DNA of 59,925 nt from Candidatus Aquivivens invisus (GTDB lineage: Bacteria > Omnitrophota > Gorgyraeia > Aquiviventales > Aquiviventaceae). The position numbers and the translations under genes were made by a program. The notes beneath the pieces were generated by a model. It did not search any database. It was given only the letters and a program-made list of their open reading frames with translations, and had not been told where the DNA came from. Location of the stretch: NCBI GenBank assembly GCA_001804415.1, contig MHGA01000041.1, positions 1 to 59,925 of the forward strand. The letters run 5' to 3'. Shown here piece by piece: positions 52,524 to 59,925 of this stretch. Within the stretch, counting starts at the first letter, position 1, and every line of letters begins with the position of its first letter.

Positions 52524-53360
52524 CTAGGAATCAACCTTGAGGCGATGGTATCTTGAGTCGACGATCTCAGTAAACTTGCCTCGAAAAGCGGCCGGCAGAC
52601 GGTTGGCCTCGATCAGCTGCTTCATGCGACTGAGCTTGCCGACGAATTTCTGATAGCGGACTTTCTCCGGGATTTCCAAGGTGTCCGCGAATGCGTCGAC
52701 ATCATTCCGTGTGAGGTGGTTCCGTTTCCCATGCAGCGTCAGCGCAGAGTCTTCCTCGCCCGGGATGACCAGCTTGGTGCACACCAGATCGTACGCCGGA
52801 GCGAGACGAACCCCATCACCTTGGTACGTGATCGAATAGTTTTGAAAATGCGCATCGCCATTGCCGATCAAAAAGTTCAGGACGACACGCTCAAAGAACA
52901 GCTGTACGTCCAGCCCTGGCACGGCAGAAATGTCTTTCAGCTTCTTGCCGATCTCTTCCAGAGACCCTGCGTACTTATCCTTCTTCTCGAGGATTTGGTA
53001 GAAATTCTCTTGGTGGATCTTTTCCTTCCCAACCCGATCAAAGCGCTTGACCACATAGGCCAGGGTCTTGTCTGTTAAGGGTAAGAGGCAATGCGGTGGC
53101 ACCTCGATCTCCAGCTCCATCGCGATATCCATGCAACAGTTCTCGTTTTCCGGGACATGGGGATACTGTTGGATCTGCGGCTTCAGAATGTACTCCCCGC
53201 CTTCCACGACCGGAACCAGTTCAGCTTGAGATTTATTGAGTTGGAGCGATAATTTCGGTTGGACGCCGGAAATGGACATCTTCCCCACCATGGCTTGTGC
53301 GCGCAGCGGGATGTCCATGAGGGACAACGGAATGGTAGGCTCTACATCGAGATTGAACAT
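52524..53360 (-). CDS. hipT: HipT-like Ser/Thr kinase (short HipA, kinase core only)
   Basis: Gly-rich loop region MSISGVQPKLSLQL; YILKPQ; FLIGNGDAHFQNYSITYQGDGVRLAPAYDLVCT catalytic and metal-binding motifs; lacks the HipA N-domain, which is encoded by the next ORF upstream. Confidence 0.88.
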   Translation of the reverse strand: MFNLDVEPTIPLSLMDIPLRAQAMVGKMSISGVQPKLSLQLNKSQAELVPVVEGGEYILKPQIQQYPHVPENENCCMDIAMELEIEVPPHCLLPLTDKTLAYVVKRFDRVGKEKIHQENFYQILEKKDKYAGSLEEIGKKLKDISAVPGLDVQLFFERVVLNFLIGNGDAHFQNYSITYQGDGVRLAPAYDLVCTKLVIPGEEDSALTLHGKRNHLTRNDVDAFADTLEIPEKVRYQKFVGKLSRMKQLIEANRLPAAFRGKFTEIVDSRYHRLKVDS

Positions 53361-53400
53361 GGCCTTGACCGATGTTACGTCAACCATCGTGCACCCGCCC

Positions 53401-53742
53401 TTACTCTTCAGCTTTATGCACGGTCACCGCACCAATCGTATCTGCCGTGGTCGCCAGGAGAATGCCGAACGCATCCTGCGCATCGATCTTGGCGGTAGCG
53501 CTCACAATCGCCAGGTACCATCCCTCAGGCAAGAGACCCCGAAAGAAGCTGAACAGCTCTCGCGATTCGTAGGGCTCCTCGCGCAATGGCAGCGACATCG
53601 AGATGGGCGCTCCCGTGCGCAGGTACGCGGGATCGTACTGGAACTGGTACCCCGTCGCCGTCTCTGATAAGTAGCCGGCAACCTGATCCTTGTACTTAAC
53701 CTTGGCTCTTCGAAACGACTCTGGGCTCATGGTTCGACACAA
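53401..53742 (-). CDS. hipS: HipS-like protein (detached HipA N-terminal domain)
   Basis: VAGYLSETATGYQFQYDPAYLRTGAPISMSLPLREEPYESRELFSFFRGLLPEGWYLAIVSATAKIDAQDAFGILLATTADTIGAV. Confidence 0.88.
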   Translation of the reverse strand: MCRTMSPESFRRAKVKYKDQVAGYLSETATGYQFQYDPAYLRTGAPISMSLPLREEPYESRELFSFFRGLLPEGWYLAIVSATAKIDAQDAFGILLATTADTIGAVTVHKAEE

Positions 53743-53923
53743 TCTCCAGATGATGCCCGAGGAATTTCAAGACCTGGTTCACCTTATCGAGGCGGACACT
53801 GGGCTTGCCCTGTTCGAGGTCGCGAATAAACCGCAAGCCGACCCCCACTCGTTTTGAAAATTCCACTTGAGTGAGTCCGGATCGCTTGCGCAGTTCCTTG
53901 ATCTTCTTGCTGAGTGGAGTCAT
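53696..53923 (-). CDS. hipB: HipB-like XRE antitoxin
   Basis: MTPLSKKIKELRKRSGLTQVEFSKRVGVGLRFIRDLEQGKPSVRLDKVNQVLKFLGHHLEIV; overlaps hipS. Confidence 0.9.
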   Translation of the reverse strand: MTPLSKKIKELRKRSGLTQVEFSKRVGVGLRFIRDLEQGKPSVRLDKVNQVLKFLGHHLEIVSNHEPRVVSKSQG

Positions 53924-54235: not shown

Positions 54236-55102
54236 TCAAGCAAACAGCGTGGCGACCTGCGGACGAAGCTCCTCGATCACCGTCGTGTAGGGTGGGAGCT
54301 TCGGTACCAGCGGCCCGAGCCACTGCGTCCACGTCTGCTCCACGCCTGCCAGCATGGTCTCGGGAAAGAAGCTCTCTGGCCCTGTAAATGTCACGTCACG
54401 GATCGCGCACTTTTTGCGCAAGAACATGGAAAATTCCGACAGGTCGAGGCGATCTCGATAGGTGCCGAGGATCCTCCAGAGGTCGTAGTAGTCCCGCGCG
54501 CGGGAGCGCGCCCAGCCCCGACGTTCAAGGGCGCGCTGATGCTGCAGGATGGCCCGCAGCTTCTCCGCCACGATCTCCTCCAGCGGGTAGACCGGCACCT
54601 GGGCATTCAGCGGTTCGCCGTAGTCATGGAGCACAGCGCGCCGCAGCGGCGGTTTCAGCAACGGTTCATCCACTGCGATCTCGACCATCACGTGCGCCTG
54701 AGGCTGTCGGTGCCACGGGAACCGCGCCCGGATGTCGAAAGCCTCCTGGCCGCCCGGATGCGGCTCGCGCTCGACGTGCCGCTCGCAGACAATGTCGACA
54801 GGTACGTAGGGATCGAGGAGCTTGACCGCTTGGGTACAGGCCCCCCGCATCGCAGACTCCATCGCAGCACCCGTCGGGACGGATTCCACGGCGGTAAAGT
54901 CCAGATCCTCGGAAAAGCGGTAGTCGCCGAAGTAGCATTTCTTGAGGGCGGTGCCACCCTTGAACACCAGCGTGTCGCGCAGGGCCTCCACCTGGGTGAC
55001 ACCGGCCAGCACCCACGAGAGGAGATAATCGCGTTCGAGCACCTCCCACGGCAGGCCCAGCCGCGTACGGGCTTCCTGCAGGCGAGTGCGCAGCGGCTTC
55101 AT
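54236..55102 (-). CDS. abiEii: AbiEii family nucleotidyltransferase toxin
   Basis: LVFKGGTALKKCYFGDYRFSEDLDFTAV; YPLEEIVAEKLRAILQHQ; RARDYYDLWRI. Confidence 0.92.
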   Translation of the reverse strand: MKPLRTRLQEARTRLGLPWEVLERDYLLSWVLAGVTQVEALRDTLVFKGGTALKKCYFGDYRFSEDLDFTAVESVPTGAAMESAMRGACTQAVKLLDPYVPVDIVCERHVEREPHPGGQEAFDIRARFPWHRQPQAHVMVEIAVDEPLLKPPLRRAVLHDYGEPLNAQVPVYPLEEIVAEKLRAILQHQRALERRGWARSRARDYYDLWRILGTYRDRLDLSEFSMFLRKKCAIRDVTFTGPESFFPETMLAGVEQTWTQWLGPLVPKLPPYTTVIEELRPQVATLFA

Positions 55103-55962
55103 CCCACCGTCCCCGGGAGATTCACCTGGATCATCCAGCGGGCGTCATATGATCCGTGGCGTGGGCTGCTTGGATCGAGCACGCGGTAACCCTTCATGGG
55201 GACCGCCCCCAACGGCTCCAACCGGTCGGATGCGATCCCCTGCCGCTCCAAGATCCAGCCCAGGCGCTTGGCTGTGGCGGCGTCCAGCATGAGGGCATAG
55301 CGAATGATCCGCTCCACGTCGAGCTTGGGAGCCCGGACTTCAAAGCCATGGAGCACCTCGGCGAAGTCACCGCAGTATCGCGGCGCCATCAGCCCATCCA
55401 GGAGGGTCCGCTCCGGATCGGTGATCGCGATCCTGGACTCCTGCACCCAGACCTCCTCGATTCCGAAGAACCGCTCCGGCTTGACCTGCACGAATTGATA
55501 GGTCGCAGCACCCACTGGATAGCTTGCCCCTCCCTGCTTGCCTCCGGCAACCGCAGGCAGGTCGGTGCGGACCGCCTTCGCGCCACGTAGGCGGGGCACC
55601 GAGCGCGCGGAGGTCAGCACGAACACCCGCCGCGGCACCTGGTCCGTCAGCCCATGATGGCTCATCGCCGACCAGTGGCTGATCGCCGCCGGCTCAACCA
55701 GCGCCATCGCAATCTCGAACTCGTGCAGTGGGATCGTCCCTGGCACCGCGCCCGAGAGCACGTAGAGCCCCTTCTTCAACCGGACAATCCATCCAGATCG
55801 GGCGAGGTGATGCAGCGCCTCGCGAAAGTAGCCAGACGACAGGCCCACCGATGGAGCGACCCTGCGCGCTGCCTCAGCGGTGAAGACGCGTAGCCCTTCC
55901 GCCGACAGCTTCCTGACAAGTTCAACCCCTGATGTTGTATGGGTGAGCTGTTCTATTGTCAT
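55099..55962 (-). CDS. abiEi: AbiEi family antitoxin / transcriptional regulator
   Basis: wHTH GLRVFTAEAARRVAPSVGLSSGYFREALHHLARSGWIVRLKKGLYVLSGAVPG; ATGA overlap with abiEii (55099-55102). Confidence 0.88.
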   Translation of the reverse strand: MTIEQLTHTTSGVELVRKLSAEGLRVFTAEAARRVAPSVGLSSGYFREALHHLARSGWIVRLKKGLYVLSGAVPGTIPLHEFEIAMALVEPAAISHWSAMSHHGLTDQVPRRVFVLTSARSVPRLRGAKAVRTDLPAVAGGKQGGASYPVGAATYQFVQVKPERFFGIEEVWVQESRIAITDPERTLLDGLMAPRYCGDFAEVLHGFEVRAPKLDVERIIRYALMLDAATAKRLGWILERQGIASDRLEPLGAVPMKGYRVLDPSSPRHGSYDARWMIQVNLPGTVG

Positions 55963-56053
55963 GGCTTGTCCTTGATATAAAGTATACGTCAATAATTTGT
56001 TACTGTCAAACAATAGCCTGTAATAATATAGCTATGTAAGATTGGCCACGCAT

Positions 56054-57296: not shown

Positions 57297-57315
57297 GCGC
57301 AGATAGAAGGCGTTC

Positions 57316-57337
57316 CAAATATACCAGCCCAGATCAG
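57316..57337. repeat. 22-bp repeat caaatRtRccagcccRgaYcag (second of three copies: 56222, 57316, 59863)
   Basis: caaatataccagcccagatcag versus caaatatgccagcccggatcag and caaatgtgccagcccagaccag. Confidence 0.75.
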
Positions 57338-57397
57338 CTAGGCGGGCCGACGTAGGAGGTCTCCGATTTTCCCCTGCGCTTCCCTCAACGTGTCCCT

Positions 57398-57419
57398 TCG
57401 GAACCCGGTACGGGTTTTC
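57398..57419. repeat. Hairpin repeat CGGAACCCGGTACGGGTTTTCC (also at 59627)
   Basis: Identical in both copies; AACCCG-GTA-CGGGTT stem followed by T-tract. Confidence 0.75.
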
Positions 57420-57434
57420 CCCGGCTCCGGGTTG

Positions 57435-58778
57435 TCAACCAGAATGGCTGAGCTGGCGCTTCAGGAACTGCTCAATGATCGGCTGGACGACCCGCTCTTT
57501 GTGAAGCTCGAAATAATCGAACAACACCGTCAACTCAGAAACCGCTGCGTGAACCAAATCAACGAGCTTGGACTCGATATCCCCAAGGCGCTCTCGAACG
57601 CTGGTTTCCATTTCGTTCTCGACGCACACGCGGCGCTCGAGGCTGTCAAACCCCGCTGCTCGCTCCGGATGCGCGGCGGTCAGGACGCGCCCGCGCAGCC
57701 CGGTGTATCGGATCCGTACGACGACGTGCTCGTTCTCCTGGATTCCCAACGCCCCATACAGCCGGCGAATCCTCAAGAGCGTCTCAGCCGTCCGGACGAT
57801 GCGCGTATCCAGGAAAATCTTGCCTTCCGATCTGGTATCCTCAAACAGCGTTTTCAGCAGGAAAAACGCCAGGTCGCTTCTGAGCGCCCAGTAATCATAC
57901 TGCGACTTGTCATCCACGAGGACGCTGGCGCGGATGCCATCCTGATAGGCCTTCGGCTCAAACTCCGGTCGACTCATGACCACCCCAATCGGCCAGCCAA
58001 ACGCACGGATCTGCGTCTTCTCCATCGCTTGCCGCAGTTCCTGCTGTCTGACCCGGAGAGTCTCTCCGGTAGCGCGTCGCCAATAATCTTGCTGTGCATT
58101 GACCACTTTGTCTGGACAATACGCCGTGACCTCCATGAGGCATTTGTCCAGTTGGTTCGTCTTGGCCACCTGCACGGCTGCGCGGCGCTCCTGCTCGACC
58201 CAGGTATTCAGCTCCGCGTAGTCTTCGGCGACCTTCTGTTCCCCCGTCCTGGCCTTGCGGGACGGCCGCAGGATGATATCGAAGTCGCAATTGGCCGCCT
58301 TGGCGAACTTCCGAAGATAGTCCAGGGTGGGTTTTTCACGCCCGCTCTCGATGCCGGAGACAAACTGCTGGCTGCAGCCCAAGGCGCCGGCCAGCGCCTC
58401 CTGGGACAAGTTTGCTTCCTCCCGGCAGGACCGAAGCCTGGCCAATACATCGTTGGTGAACGGGTCCGGCTCGCGCGGTGCTTCCTGTCGCACGCGCACG
58501 CCGGCTTCGCGCAATTCTCGGAGATGGCGCTCATACGTCGCTCGCCAAAACGCCGCCTGATCCTTCGTCCATTCATCCTTGCTGATTTCACGTTGGATCG
58601 CACGGAATCGCCGGCAGAAAGCCAGCGGCGTGATGAGCGCGAAGACCTCATCAGGATCCTTGGTCCTGGCGAGCAGCTTGCCAGCCACCCGCGCAAACCT
58701 CGGGTTGCGGTCATCGACCAGGATGGCCTTGATGGTCTCGAACGGGAGCCGCAGATCCCAATACCAGTTGGTAGTCAT
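57435..58778 (-). CDS. Multi-domain XRE-type HTH protein paired with an AbiEii-like nucleotidyltransferase
   Basis: 447 aa from MTTNWYWDLRLPFETIKAILVDDRNPRF; central HTH RLRSCREEANLSQEALAGALGCSQQFVSGIESGREKPTLDYLRKFAKA; about 230 aa C-terminal domain with IRAFGWPIGVVMSRPEFEP and FFLLKTLFEDTRSEGKIFLDTRIVRTAETL; ATGA overlap with upstream gene. Confidence 0.8.
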   Translation of the reverse strand: MTTNWYWDLRLPFETIKAILVDDRNPRFARVAGKLLARTKDPDEVFALITPLAFCRRFRAIQREISKDEWTKDQAAFWRATYERHLRELREAGVRVRQEAPREPDPFTNDVLARLRSCREEANLSQEALAGALGCSQQFVSGIESGREKPTLDYLRKFAKAANCDFDIILRPSRKARTGEQKVAEDYAELNTWVEQERRAAVQVAKTNQLDKCLMEVTAYCPDKVVNAQQDYWRRATGETLRVRQQELRQAMEKTQIRAFGWPIGVVMSRPEFEPKAYQDGIRASVLVDDKSQYDYWALRSDLAFFLLKTLFEDTRSEGKIFLDTRIVRTAETLLRIRRLYGALGIQENEHVVVRIRYTGLRGRVLTAAHPERAAGFDSLERRVCVENEMETSVRERLGDIESKLVDLVHAAVSELTVLFDYFELHKERVVQPIIEQFLKRQLSHSG

Positions 58779-59470
58779 CGCGATACGTAGACTCGGTTGA
58801 GGCGATCGTAGATCTGATCCTCGAGGTGGCGAAGAATCCGTTTGGTGTCGCAGCCCGGTGCGACATCCAGCAGCGCAAACGCCGTATCCTGGCGCGTCAT
58901 CGCCTGCAGCCAGCGCGCCAGCCTGGCATAGTCCTCTCGGCCGAAATGCGCCGAGAACCACTCATGCAACGGGGCATGATGGACCGACAGATACCAGAGA
59001 TCAAACATGTCCTTGGCTTCCTGCCGACCCCCGGATAGCTCCTGCCCCGTAGATAGCGACTTGCTGCGCCACCCGATCACCGCGCGCAGCTTGCGCAGAT
59101 AAATGTCGTCAAGCGAGGCGATCCCATCCGGCCCGACCGGATGCAGCAAGCGGTCAACATCTTCGATCACGTCGACCTTGAGCAGATCCTTCGCGGTCAC
59201 CTGGAAATTATAGAAGGCCACTCCGGCCTGGCCCGACTTGCGCTGCTCCGAGATCAGCTTGGCGGAGAATCCTGTGGTTGCCGTGATTCGCTTGGCCAGC
59301 GTTCGATGAAGCGCCTTGGTCCACCGCTGGGTAAAGAAGTCCAGATCCTCCGAATCACGATGCCGGTAGCGCAGAGCTAACGCCGTTCCTCCAACCAGAT
59401 AGACCTTGCTGACGGAGGATACGACAGCTCGCAGGATCTGTTCCTGAGCCTTACGGAGTGCGTTCTTCAT
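58775..59470 (-). CDS. AbiEii-like nucleotidyltransferase
   Basis: VYLVGGTALALRYRHRDSEDLDFFTQRW; ASLDDIYLRKLRAVIGWRSK; EAKDMFDLWYLS. Confidence 0.85.
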   Translation of the reverse strand: MKNALRKAQEQILRAVVSSVSKVYLVGGTALALRYRHRDSEDLDFFTQRWTKALHRTLAKRITATTGFSAKLISEQRKSGQAGVAFYNFQVTAKDLLKVDVIEDVDRLLHPVGPDGIASLDDIYLRKLRAVIGWRSKSLSTGQELSGGRQEAKDMFDLWYLSVHHAPLHEWFSAHFGREDYARLARWLQAMTRQDTAFALLDVAPGCDTKRILRHLEDQIYDRLNRVYVSR

Positions 59471-59476
59471 ATGAGA

Positions 59477-59532
59477 CTAGCTATAGCTAGTAAACAAGAA
59501 ATAATATATCATAATACACAAGCTATAGCTAG
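59477..59532. promoter_or_regulatory. Pair of palindromic operator-like sites upstream of the NTase-XRE operon
   Basis: CTAGCTATAGCTAG (59477-59490) and AGCTATAGCTAG (59521-59532); identical 12-mers start 42 bp apart. Confidence 0.65.
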
Positions 59533-59600
59533 TTGTTTTAGAACAGCGTATTTCAGAAATTCCGGTGACGATACTTATTCAATTCAGAGCAACCGTTTTT

Positions 59601-59834
59601 TCATGAACGCGAAACCCGACCCGTCGGAACCCGGTACGGGTTTTCCGATTGCAATTGGGCATCGAGATTGGGGGGCCACGCCGCGCCGAGGGGAACACTT
59701 GTCGCCTCGGAGGAACGGCGTGGTCCGTCGACTCGTTCGACCGCCAGGACTGGCTGGCTGCTGAGCGCGAGGACCACCAGGGTGAGGAGCAGAATAACAC
59801 GCACGTTCACGTTCTTCTTCCTTCCAAGGAGCAT
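59601..59834 (-). CDS. Short putative secreted protein, C-terminus encoded by the hairpin repeat
   Basis: RKKNVNVRVILLLTLVVLALSSQPVLA signal-like; C-terminus NPYRVPTGRVSRS lies over the 59627 repeat. Confidence 0.35.
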   Translation of the reverse strand: MLLGRKKNVNVRVILLLTLVVLALSSQPVLAVERVDGPRRSSEATSVPLGAAWPPNLDAQLQSENPYRVPTGRVSRS

Positions 59835-59925
59835 TCACCACCTGGAAAAACAGGAAACATCCCAAATGTGCCAGCCCAGACCAGCTAGGCGGCGCCAGCC
59901 CCCGCGGCTTGTTTTGCCAAGCAAA

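Follow-up and report, generated by a model that had tools for sequence, protein, structure and literature searches.

What binds the two identical copies of the palindromic 12-mer AGCTATAGCTAG that stand in front of a nucleotidyltransferase (NTase) gene, and whether the distance between them matters, are the questions raised by this locus. In the window (the whole stretch of 59,925 nucleotides analysed) the copies lie on the forward strand at 59479-59490 and 59521-59532. A sequence-only reading had reported both and set them 42 bp apart; the positions were verified, with 42 bp being the spacing of their centres. It had also placed them in longer near-palindromes, which holds for both and can be refined: the distal site (Table 1) is self-complementary at 14 of 16 positions and agrees with the proximal one at 15 of 16, while the proximal site is one of two perfect 16-bp palindromes in the window. 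An additional match to the 12-mer at 59477-59488 on the reverse strand arises because the first site is this longer palindrome. Both sites sit inside a 25-nt direct repeat of 84% identity. The 12-mer is upstream of the NTase ATG (59470), at 8 bp where about 9 bp had been estimated, and the 16-bp palindrome ends 5 bp from the same codon. The 12-mer occurs in none of 100 dinucleotide shuffles of the window and nowhere in the 1,420,395-base genome beyond these two sites; a genome search for TACTAGCTATAGCTAGTA allowing up to three mismatches likewise returned only the same pair.

The operon and its surroundings

The NTase gene comes first in the operon and overlaps the following XRE gene by 4 bp, an order that is the same in homologues. 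The predicted NTase contains the motif hGGx13DhD (VGGTALALRYRHRDSEDLDFF). In the second protein the helix-turn-helix (HTH) domain scores 51 bits against a curated HTH_3 cut-off of 23, and the protein matches XRE HTH families only, with no AbiEi model matched in Pfam or PADLOC. The structure model of residues 1-172 (mean pLDDT 88) has a confident all-helical domain over residues 1 to ~100, for which neither a Pfam family nor a PDB fold match was found; fold matches fall in the HTH only, the best being C-proteins, HipB and ClgR. The model of the full-length 447-residue protein is poor (mean pLDDT 62). By analogy with known systems the NTase is the probable toxin and the XRE protein the probable antitoxin. 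Residues ~240-442 (57453-58061) form an extra C-terminal domain without a Pfam family, which the own family has fused to this regulator; its relatives turn up elsewhere among Omnitrophota proteins, and also in proteins of haloarchaeal plasmids that carry the annotation ATP-binding protein.

Table 1. Predicted features of the NTase-XRE operon, its upstream region and the neighbouring AbiE pair
Feature	Position in window	Strand	Basis
DUF1814/AbiEii-type nucleotidyltransferase, 231 aa, probable toxin	58775..59470	-	Pfam PF08843, E 1.3e-14; PADLOC AbiEii models
XRE regulator/probable antitoxin, 447 aa	57435..58778	-	N-terminal domain, XRE HTH, extra C-terminal domain
XRE HTH domain, residues 113-168	58275..58442	-	HTH_3 PF01381, E 1.5e-13 at 115-168; confident helices in model
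Recognition helix SQQFVSGIE, residues 136-144	58347..58373	-	alignment with TQQSIEQLE of the 434 repressor
Proximal operator (predicted)	59476..59491	no strand	perfect 16-bp palindrome ACTAGCTATAGCTAGT; homologous sites in relatives
Distal operator (predicted), ACAAGCTATAGCTAGT	59518..59533	no strand	centre 42 bp from proximal centre
Weak candidate promoter, AAAACA-N17-TATTAT	59511..59539	-	8/12 consensus matches; one of four equals; proposed from relatives
Classical AbiEi/AbiEii pair	54236-56013	-	PADLOC AbiEi 5.8e-62, AbiEii 4e-66

The operon lies between direct repeats that form two nested pairs (57315-57345 with 59862-59892, 90% identical; 57387-57420 with 59613-59646, 88%), and no other copies of them were found in the genome. 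The outer repeat resembles a piece of coding sequence (RLADLGWYIWN / RLAGLGWHIWD), and the repeats possibly mark an insertion or duplication boundary. The AbiEi/AbiEii pair, with its regulator first, lies 1.4 kb from the operon. At 52524-53923 a HipB-like XRE gene, a HipA N-terminal part (Couple_hipA) and a HipA C-terminal part are three separate genes, a split HipBA system that brings the count to three toxin-antitoxin (TA)-like modules within 7 kb.

Among 286 sampled genomes of the phylum, about 50 carry the NTase and XRE genes as a pair. Most of the named records with it are from Candidatus Omnitrophota; isolated ones bear the labels Nitrospirae, Hydrogenedentes, Hydromicrobium and Actinomycetota. 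Within its own order the regulator is present in only 4 of 28 genomes, so that the module is patchy, and one of these copies is broken: in a genome of the same family (L154 / G282:C52) a fused regulator has an internal stop codon and no NTase was detected beside it, indicating that the module also decays. A larger sample in the own order and around genome G250 added no lineages, and viral contigs yielded neither relatives of the operon nor an exact operator pair.

Conserved palindromes and their helical phase

Upstream regions of 87 homologues were gathered, with the partner gene adjacent in 81; the search for relatives used a narrower antitoxin alignment, and a contig scan with the single protein as query gave no matches. 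The sequence-only reading had staked its proposal on the palindrome recurring before homologous operons, which it does, at the promoter. Perfect palindromes sought without any model (TACTAGTTATAACTAGTA, ATACTACTTATAAGTAGTAT and similar) stand 20-60 bp before homologous NTases, and by a symmetric weight matrix, iterated from a seed taken by eye from these palindromes, 50 of about 60 close homologues have TACWA(C/G)NTATAN(G/C)TWGTA at the promoter. In models built leaving out one lineage at a time, no control window from the same locus scored as high as the upstream region in 8/8 (own lineage), 10/10 and 31/32 operons; this comparison was limited to operons in which the matrix had already found a site, and it therefore speaks for a shared motif at this place rather than for how frequent the motif is. 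Because bases it has not seen are penalised, an earlier held-out model with a small pseudocount supported single members weakly (p 0.007-0.26), and the windowed comparison was used instead.

The motif is not uniform across the family. Subfamily D, which is divergent, uses a palindrome of the TATAG..CTATA type, TATAGRTTATAAYCTATA, and another subfamily, marked by F/Y at the helix position, has the motif in degenerate form or not at all. In three subfamily-D operons (L088, L100 and L148) the region further upstream, beyond the operon's own operators, contains one more site or a 31-bp pair of the type found in the other subfamily (in L100, TACAACTTAAAAGTAGTA and AACAACTTTTATGTTGTA), which would fit two modules that were formerly adjacent.

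Pairing is common, with the palindrome doubled in 39 of the 50 motif-bearing operons; about ten related operons have a single strong site only, and pairing is thus not obligatory. The spacing of the pairs falls into steps. One large, deep clade keeps its sites 30-32 bp apart and 19 of the 21 subfamily-D operons have them at 22-23 bp; elsewhere we find 42 bp (the window's own pair), 43 (L015), 50 (L007), 52 (L027, and both L005 and L128), 61 (L138), 62 (L009) and 66 (L033). For L009 the matrix first picked a site at 43 bp, and the one at 62 bp has better half-sites (ACTAGC/GCTAGT); the outcome of the phase test is the same with either. Measured against 3, 4, 5 or 6 helical turns, all but one of the 39 pairs deviate by no more than 2.5 bp, the exception being the out-of-phase pair at 66 bp. 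With each lineage counted once and a turn taken as 10.4-10.5 bp, the mean phase falls at whole turns (V test, p 0.002-0.003; phase-0 Monte Carlo, p 0.001, or 0.004 without the own locus; Rayleigh test with no preset phase, 0.013). These tests draw on 9-10 lineages, and with so few independent ones the evidence for phase is good, not overwhelming. The sequence-only reading had equated 42 bp with four turns and hence with two dimers on the same face. The literal value is not conserved, whereas the helical phase is, and judged from sequence this conserved phase is a stronger form of the same-face argument than a fixed 42 bp: the window's centres, 4.0 turns apart, would place both dimers on one face of the DNA.

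Of 50 operons, 40 have TTGAC or TTGAA no more than 8 bp 5' of the proximal site; in a control window only 1 of the 50 does. In most relatives the 17 bp between the two boxes of TTGACA-N17-TATAMT are taken up by the palindrome; among own-lineage relatives the proximal site shares its left edge with the -10 box, and the distal site comes immediately before the -35 box. In L005 and L128 the NTase ATG is within the proximal operator. These two operons, from the window genome's own family, have the ATG about 9 nt after a TATACT -10 box, a position suggesting a leaderless or nearly leaderless transcript. At the window's own locus a scan for consensus promoters found none, and no recognisable -35 box is present; the case for promoter occlusion there is therefore drawn from the relatives. 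The distal operator would fill the spacer of the weak candidate promoter in Table 1.

Recognition helix, half-site and proposed mechanism

The helix has the consensus (S/I/V)QQxxS(G/K/R/A)IE. Glutamines 28 and 29 of the 434 repressor read the first two bases of ACAA. In the present family a helix with QQ goes with ACWA half-sites and one with QP goes with ATAG; Q138 corresponds to C and, in subfamily D, P138 to T. Residue 142, at the position of Gln33 in the 434 repressor, is glycine with ACTAG (n = 6), lysine or arginine with ACWAC (n = 34, with two exceptions among the K/R proteins), and alanine with ACTAT (n = 2, in two lineages). The association between helix and operator is chemically sensible and statistically suggestive, the latter because the tree shows few changes (4 and 5); a sign test on two to three independent pairs was not significant. 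Such covariation is as would be expected if the XRE protein read DNA like the 434 repressor.

The prediction that the palindromes are operators of the operon's own XRE protein is well supported, since relatives keep the palindrome, altered in step with the helix, and keep pairs near whole turns. We propose that each palindrome would take one XRE dimer, with the helix SQQFVSG reading the half-site ACTAG as the 434 repressor reads ACAA. Two dimers on one face would cover the promoter and start region and exclude RNA polymerase, giving negative autoregulation, and they would probably aid each other's binding, directly or via the NTase. Binding, repression and co-operativity at the window's own pair are what we infer from these patterns. 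We hold it highly likely that the account as a whole is right, namely an autoregulated NTase-XRE module whose operator pair receives two XRE dimers on one face and whose promoter is thereby occluded. As a tentative extension, for which we would not claim even odds, selection may keep operator pairs at whole turns while the number of turns varies (2, 3, 4, 5 or 6), the reason being that the dimers make contact over promoter-containing DNA of variable length, perhaps with the NTase or the helical domain as a bridge.

Other explanations and known systems

The phase might instead have come from shared ancestry and promoter geometry, the two sites being occupied independently and the dimers making no co-operative contact. 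Several operons do have a single strong site, one pair stands at 66 bp, and negative co-operativity is on record for a related antitoxin, Rv2827c of M. tuberculosis, in binding its repeats (PMC7319586). The spacing, however, steps through 42, 50, 52 and 62 bp around the own locus with phase kept, and promoter geometry would set one site and not the phase of the other. We regard independent occupancy as unlikely, while giving it real weight.

Explanations that take the sites away from the XRE protein fare worse. Operators for a different regulator, either a host factor or one of the neighbouring antitoxins, AbiEi (55099-56013) or HipB (53696-53923), are worth considering, as both are HTH proteins encoded less than 6 kb away and the assignment to the operon's own protein is made from sequence. 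Yet the motif tracks the NTase-XRE operon across distant genomes and occurs in its own genome here only, and the half-site changes with the operon's own recognition helix, including the QQ to QP subfamily; we think another regulator improbable. It is less probable still that the palindromes act in RNA, as leader hairpins (ACUAGC-UAUA-GCUAGU) controlling translation or termination of the NTase mRNA. The closeness of the proximal site to the start codon would suit such a role, as would the want of a clear ribosome-binding site before the own NTase, but no terminator-like T-run follows the own sites, and in most relatives the two promoter boxes enclose the proximal site and the distal one precedes the -35 box, an arrangement in which neither would be transcribed. 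That the repeat arose by chance, or is the remnant of a mobile-element end, is barely credible: nested direct repeats do flank the operon, but they are different sequences from the palindromes, the shuffles lead us to expect no copies by chance, and the promoter site is conserved in homologues.

With operators for the XRE protein thus the preferred reading, the module can be set beside known systems. It has an HTH fold in common with 434 repressor/Cro, C.Esp1396I, HipB and HigA, and judged by conservation it has a dimer-type palindromic operator at its own promoter, a feature of XRE repressors. Like the 434 repressor it joins a recognition helix opening with QQ to ACWA half-sites (here ACTAG/ACAAG). 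The 434 operator has the form ACAA-N6-TTGT, whereas the form here, ACWA-N8-TWGT, has two more bases between the half-sites; the fused domains also differ from those of 434-type repressors, and the operators here are 22-62 bp apart. HigBA-like type II TA systems have a toxin gene first, an overlapping XRE gene and palindromes over the promoter. The NTase-XRE operon has the same gene order, overlap and promoter palindromes, but its toxin would be a nucleotidyltransferase and not a RelE-fold ribonuclease.

The DUF1814 nucleotidyltransferase, here the probable toxin, is shared with the AbiE type IV TA system (AbiEi/AbiEii) and with Rv2827c/Rv2826c. In those systems AbiEi autoregulates through two 23-bp inverted repeats 3 bp apart and Rv2827c through four (PMC7319586, PMC3985639). 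Co-operativity is positive for AbiEi and negative for Rv2827c (PMC7319586, PMC3985639), and MenAT1 shows no autoregulation (PMC11375011); given this mixed behaviour the sign of co-operativity should not be assumed. Where the antitoxins of the known systems bind inverted repeats, the NTase-XRE operon has conserved paired palindromes at its promoter, and each site here would be a full dimer palindrome, two to six turns from its partner. The regulator is an XRE protein with an undescribed N-terminal domain and not, like AbiEi (COG5340), a winged-HTH protein with an AbiEi C-terminal domain, and the NTase gene comes first where AbiE has the regulator first. Regulator family and gene order therefore set the module apart from AbiE proper. 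The family of the regulator appears to be new to the literature; the principle is known already.

For a nucleotidyltransferase-XRE module that appears to be undescribed, from an uncultured phylum, these results predict the operator, the regulator and a specificity code. The QQ/QP and G/KR/A changes in the helix, together with their half-sites, form a natural test set for XRE-DNA recognition. The stepwise spacing (~22, 31, 42, 52 and 62 bp) supplies natural variants with which to ask whether phase or distance matters for two repressor dimers at one promoter and, if the tentative extension on selection for whole turns is true, the range of turn numbers would amount to a naturally occurring set of spacings for repression that depends on phase.
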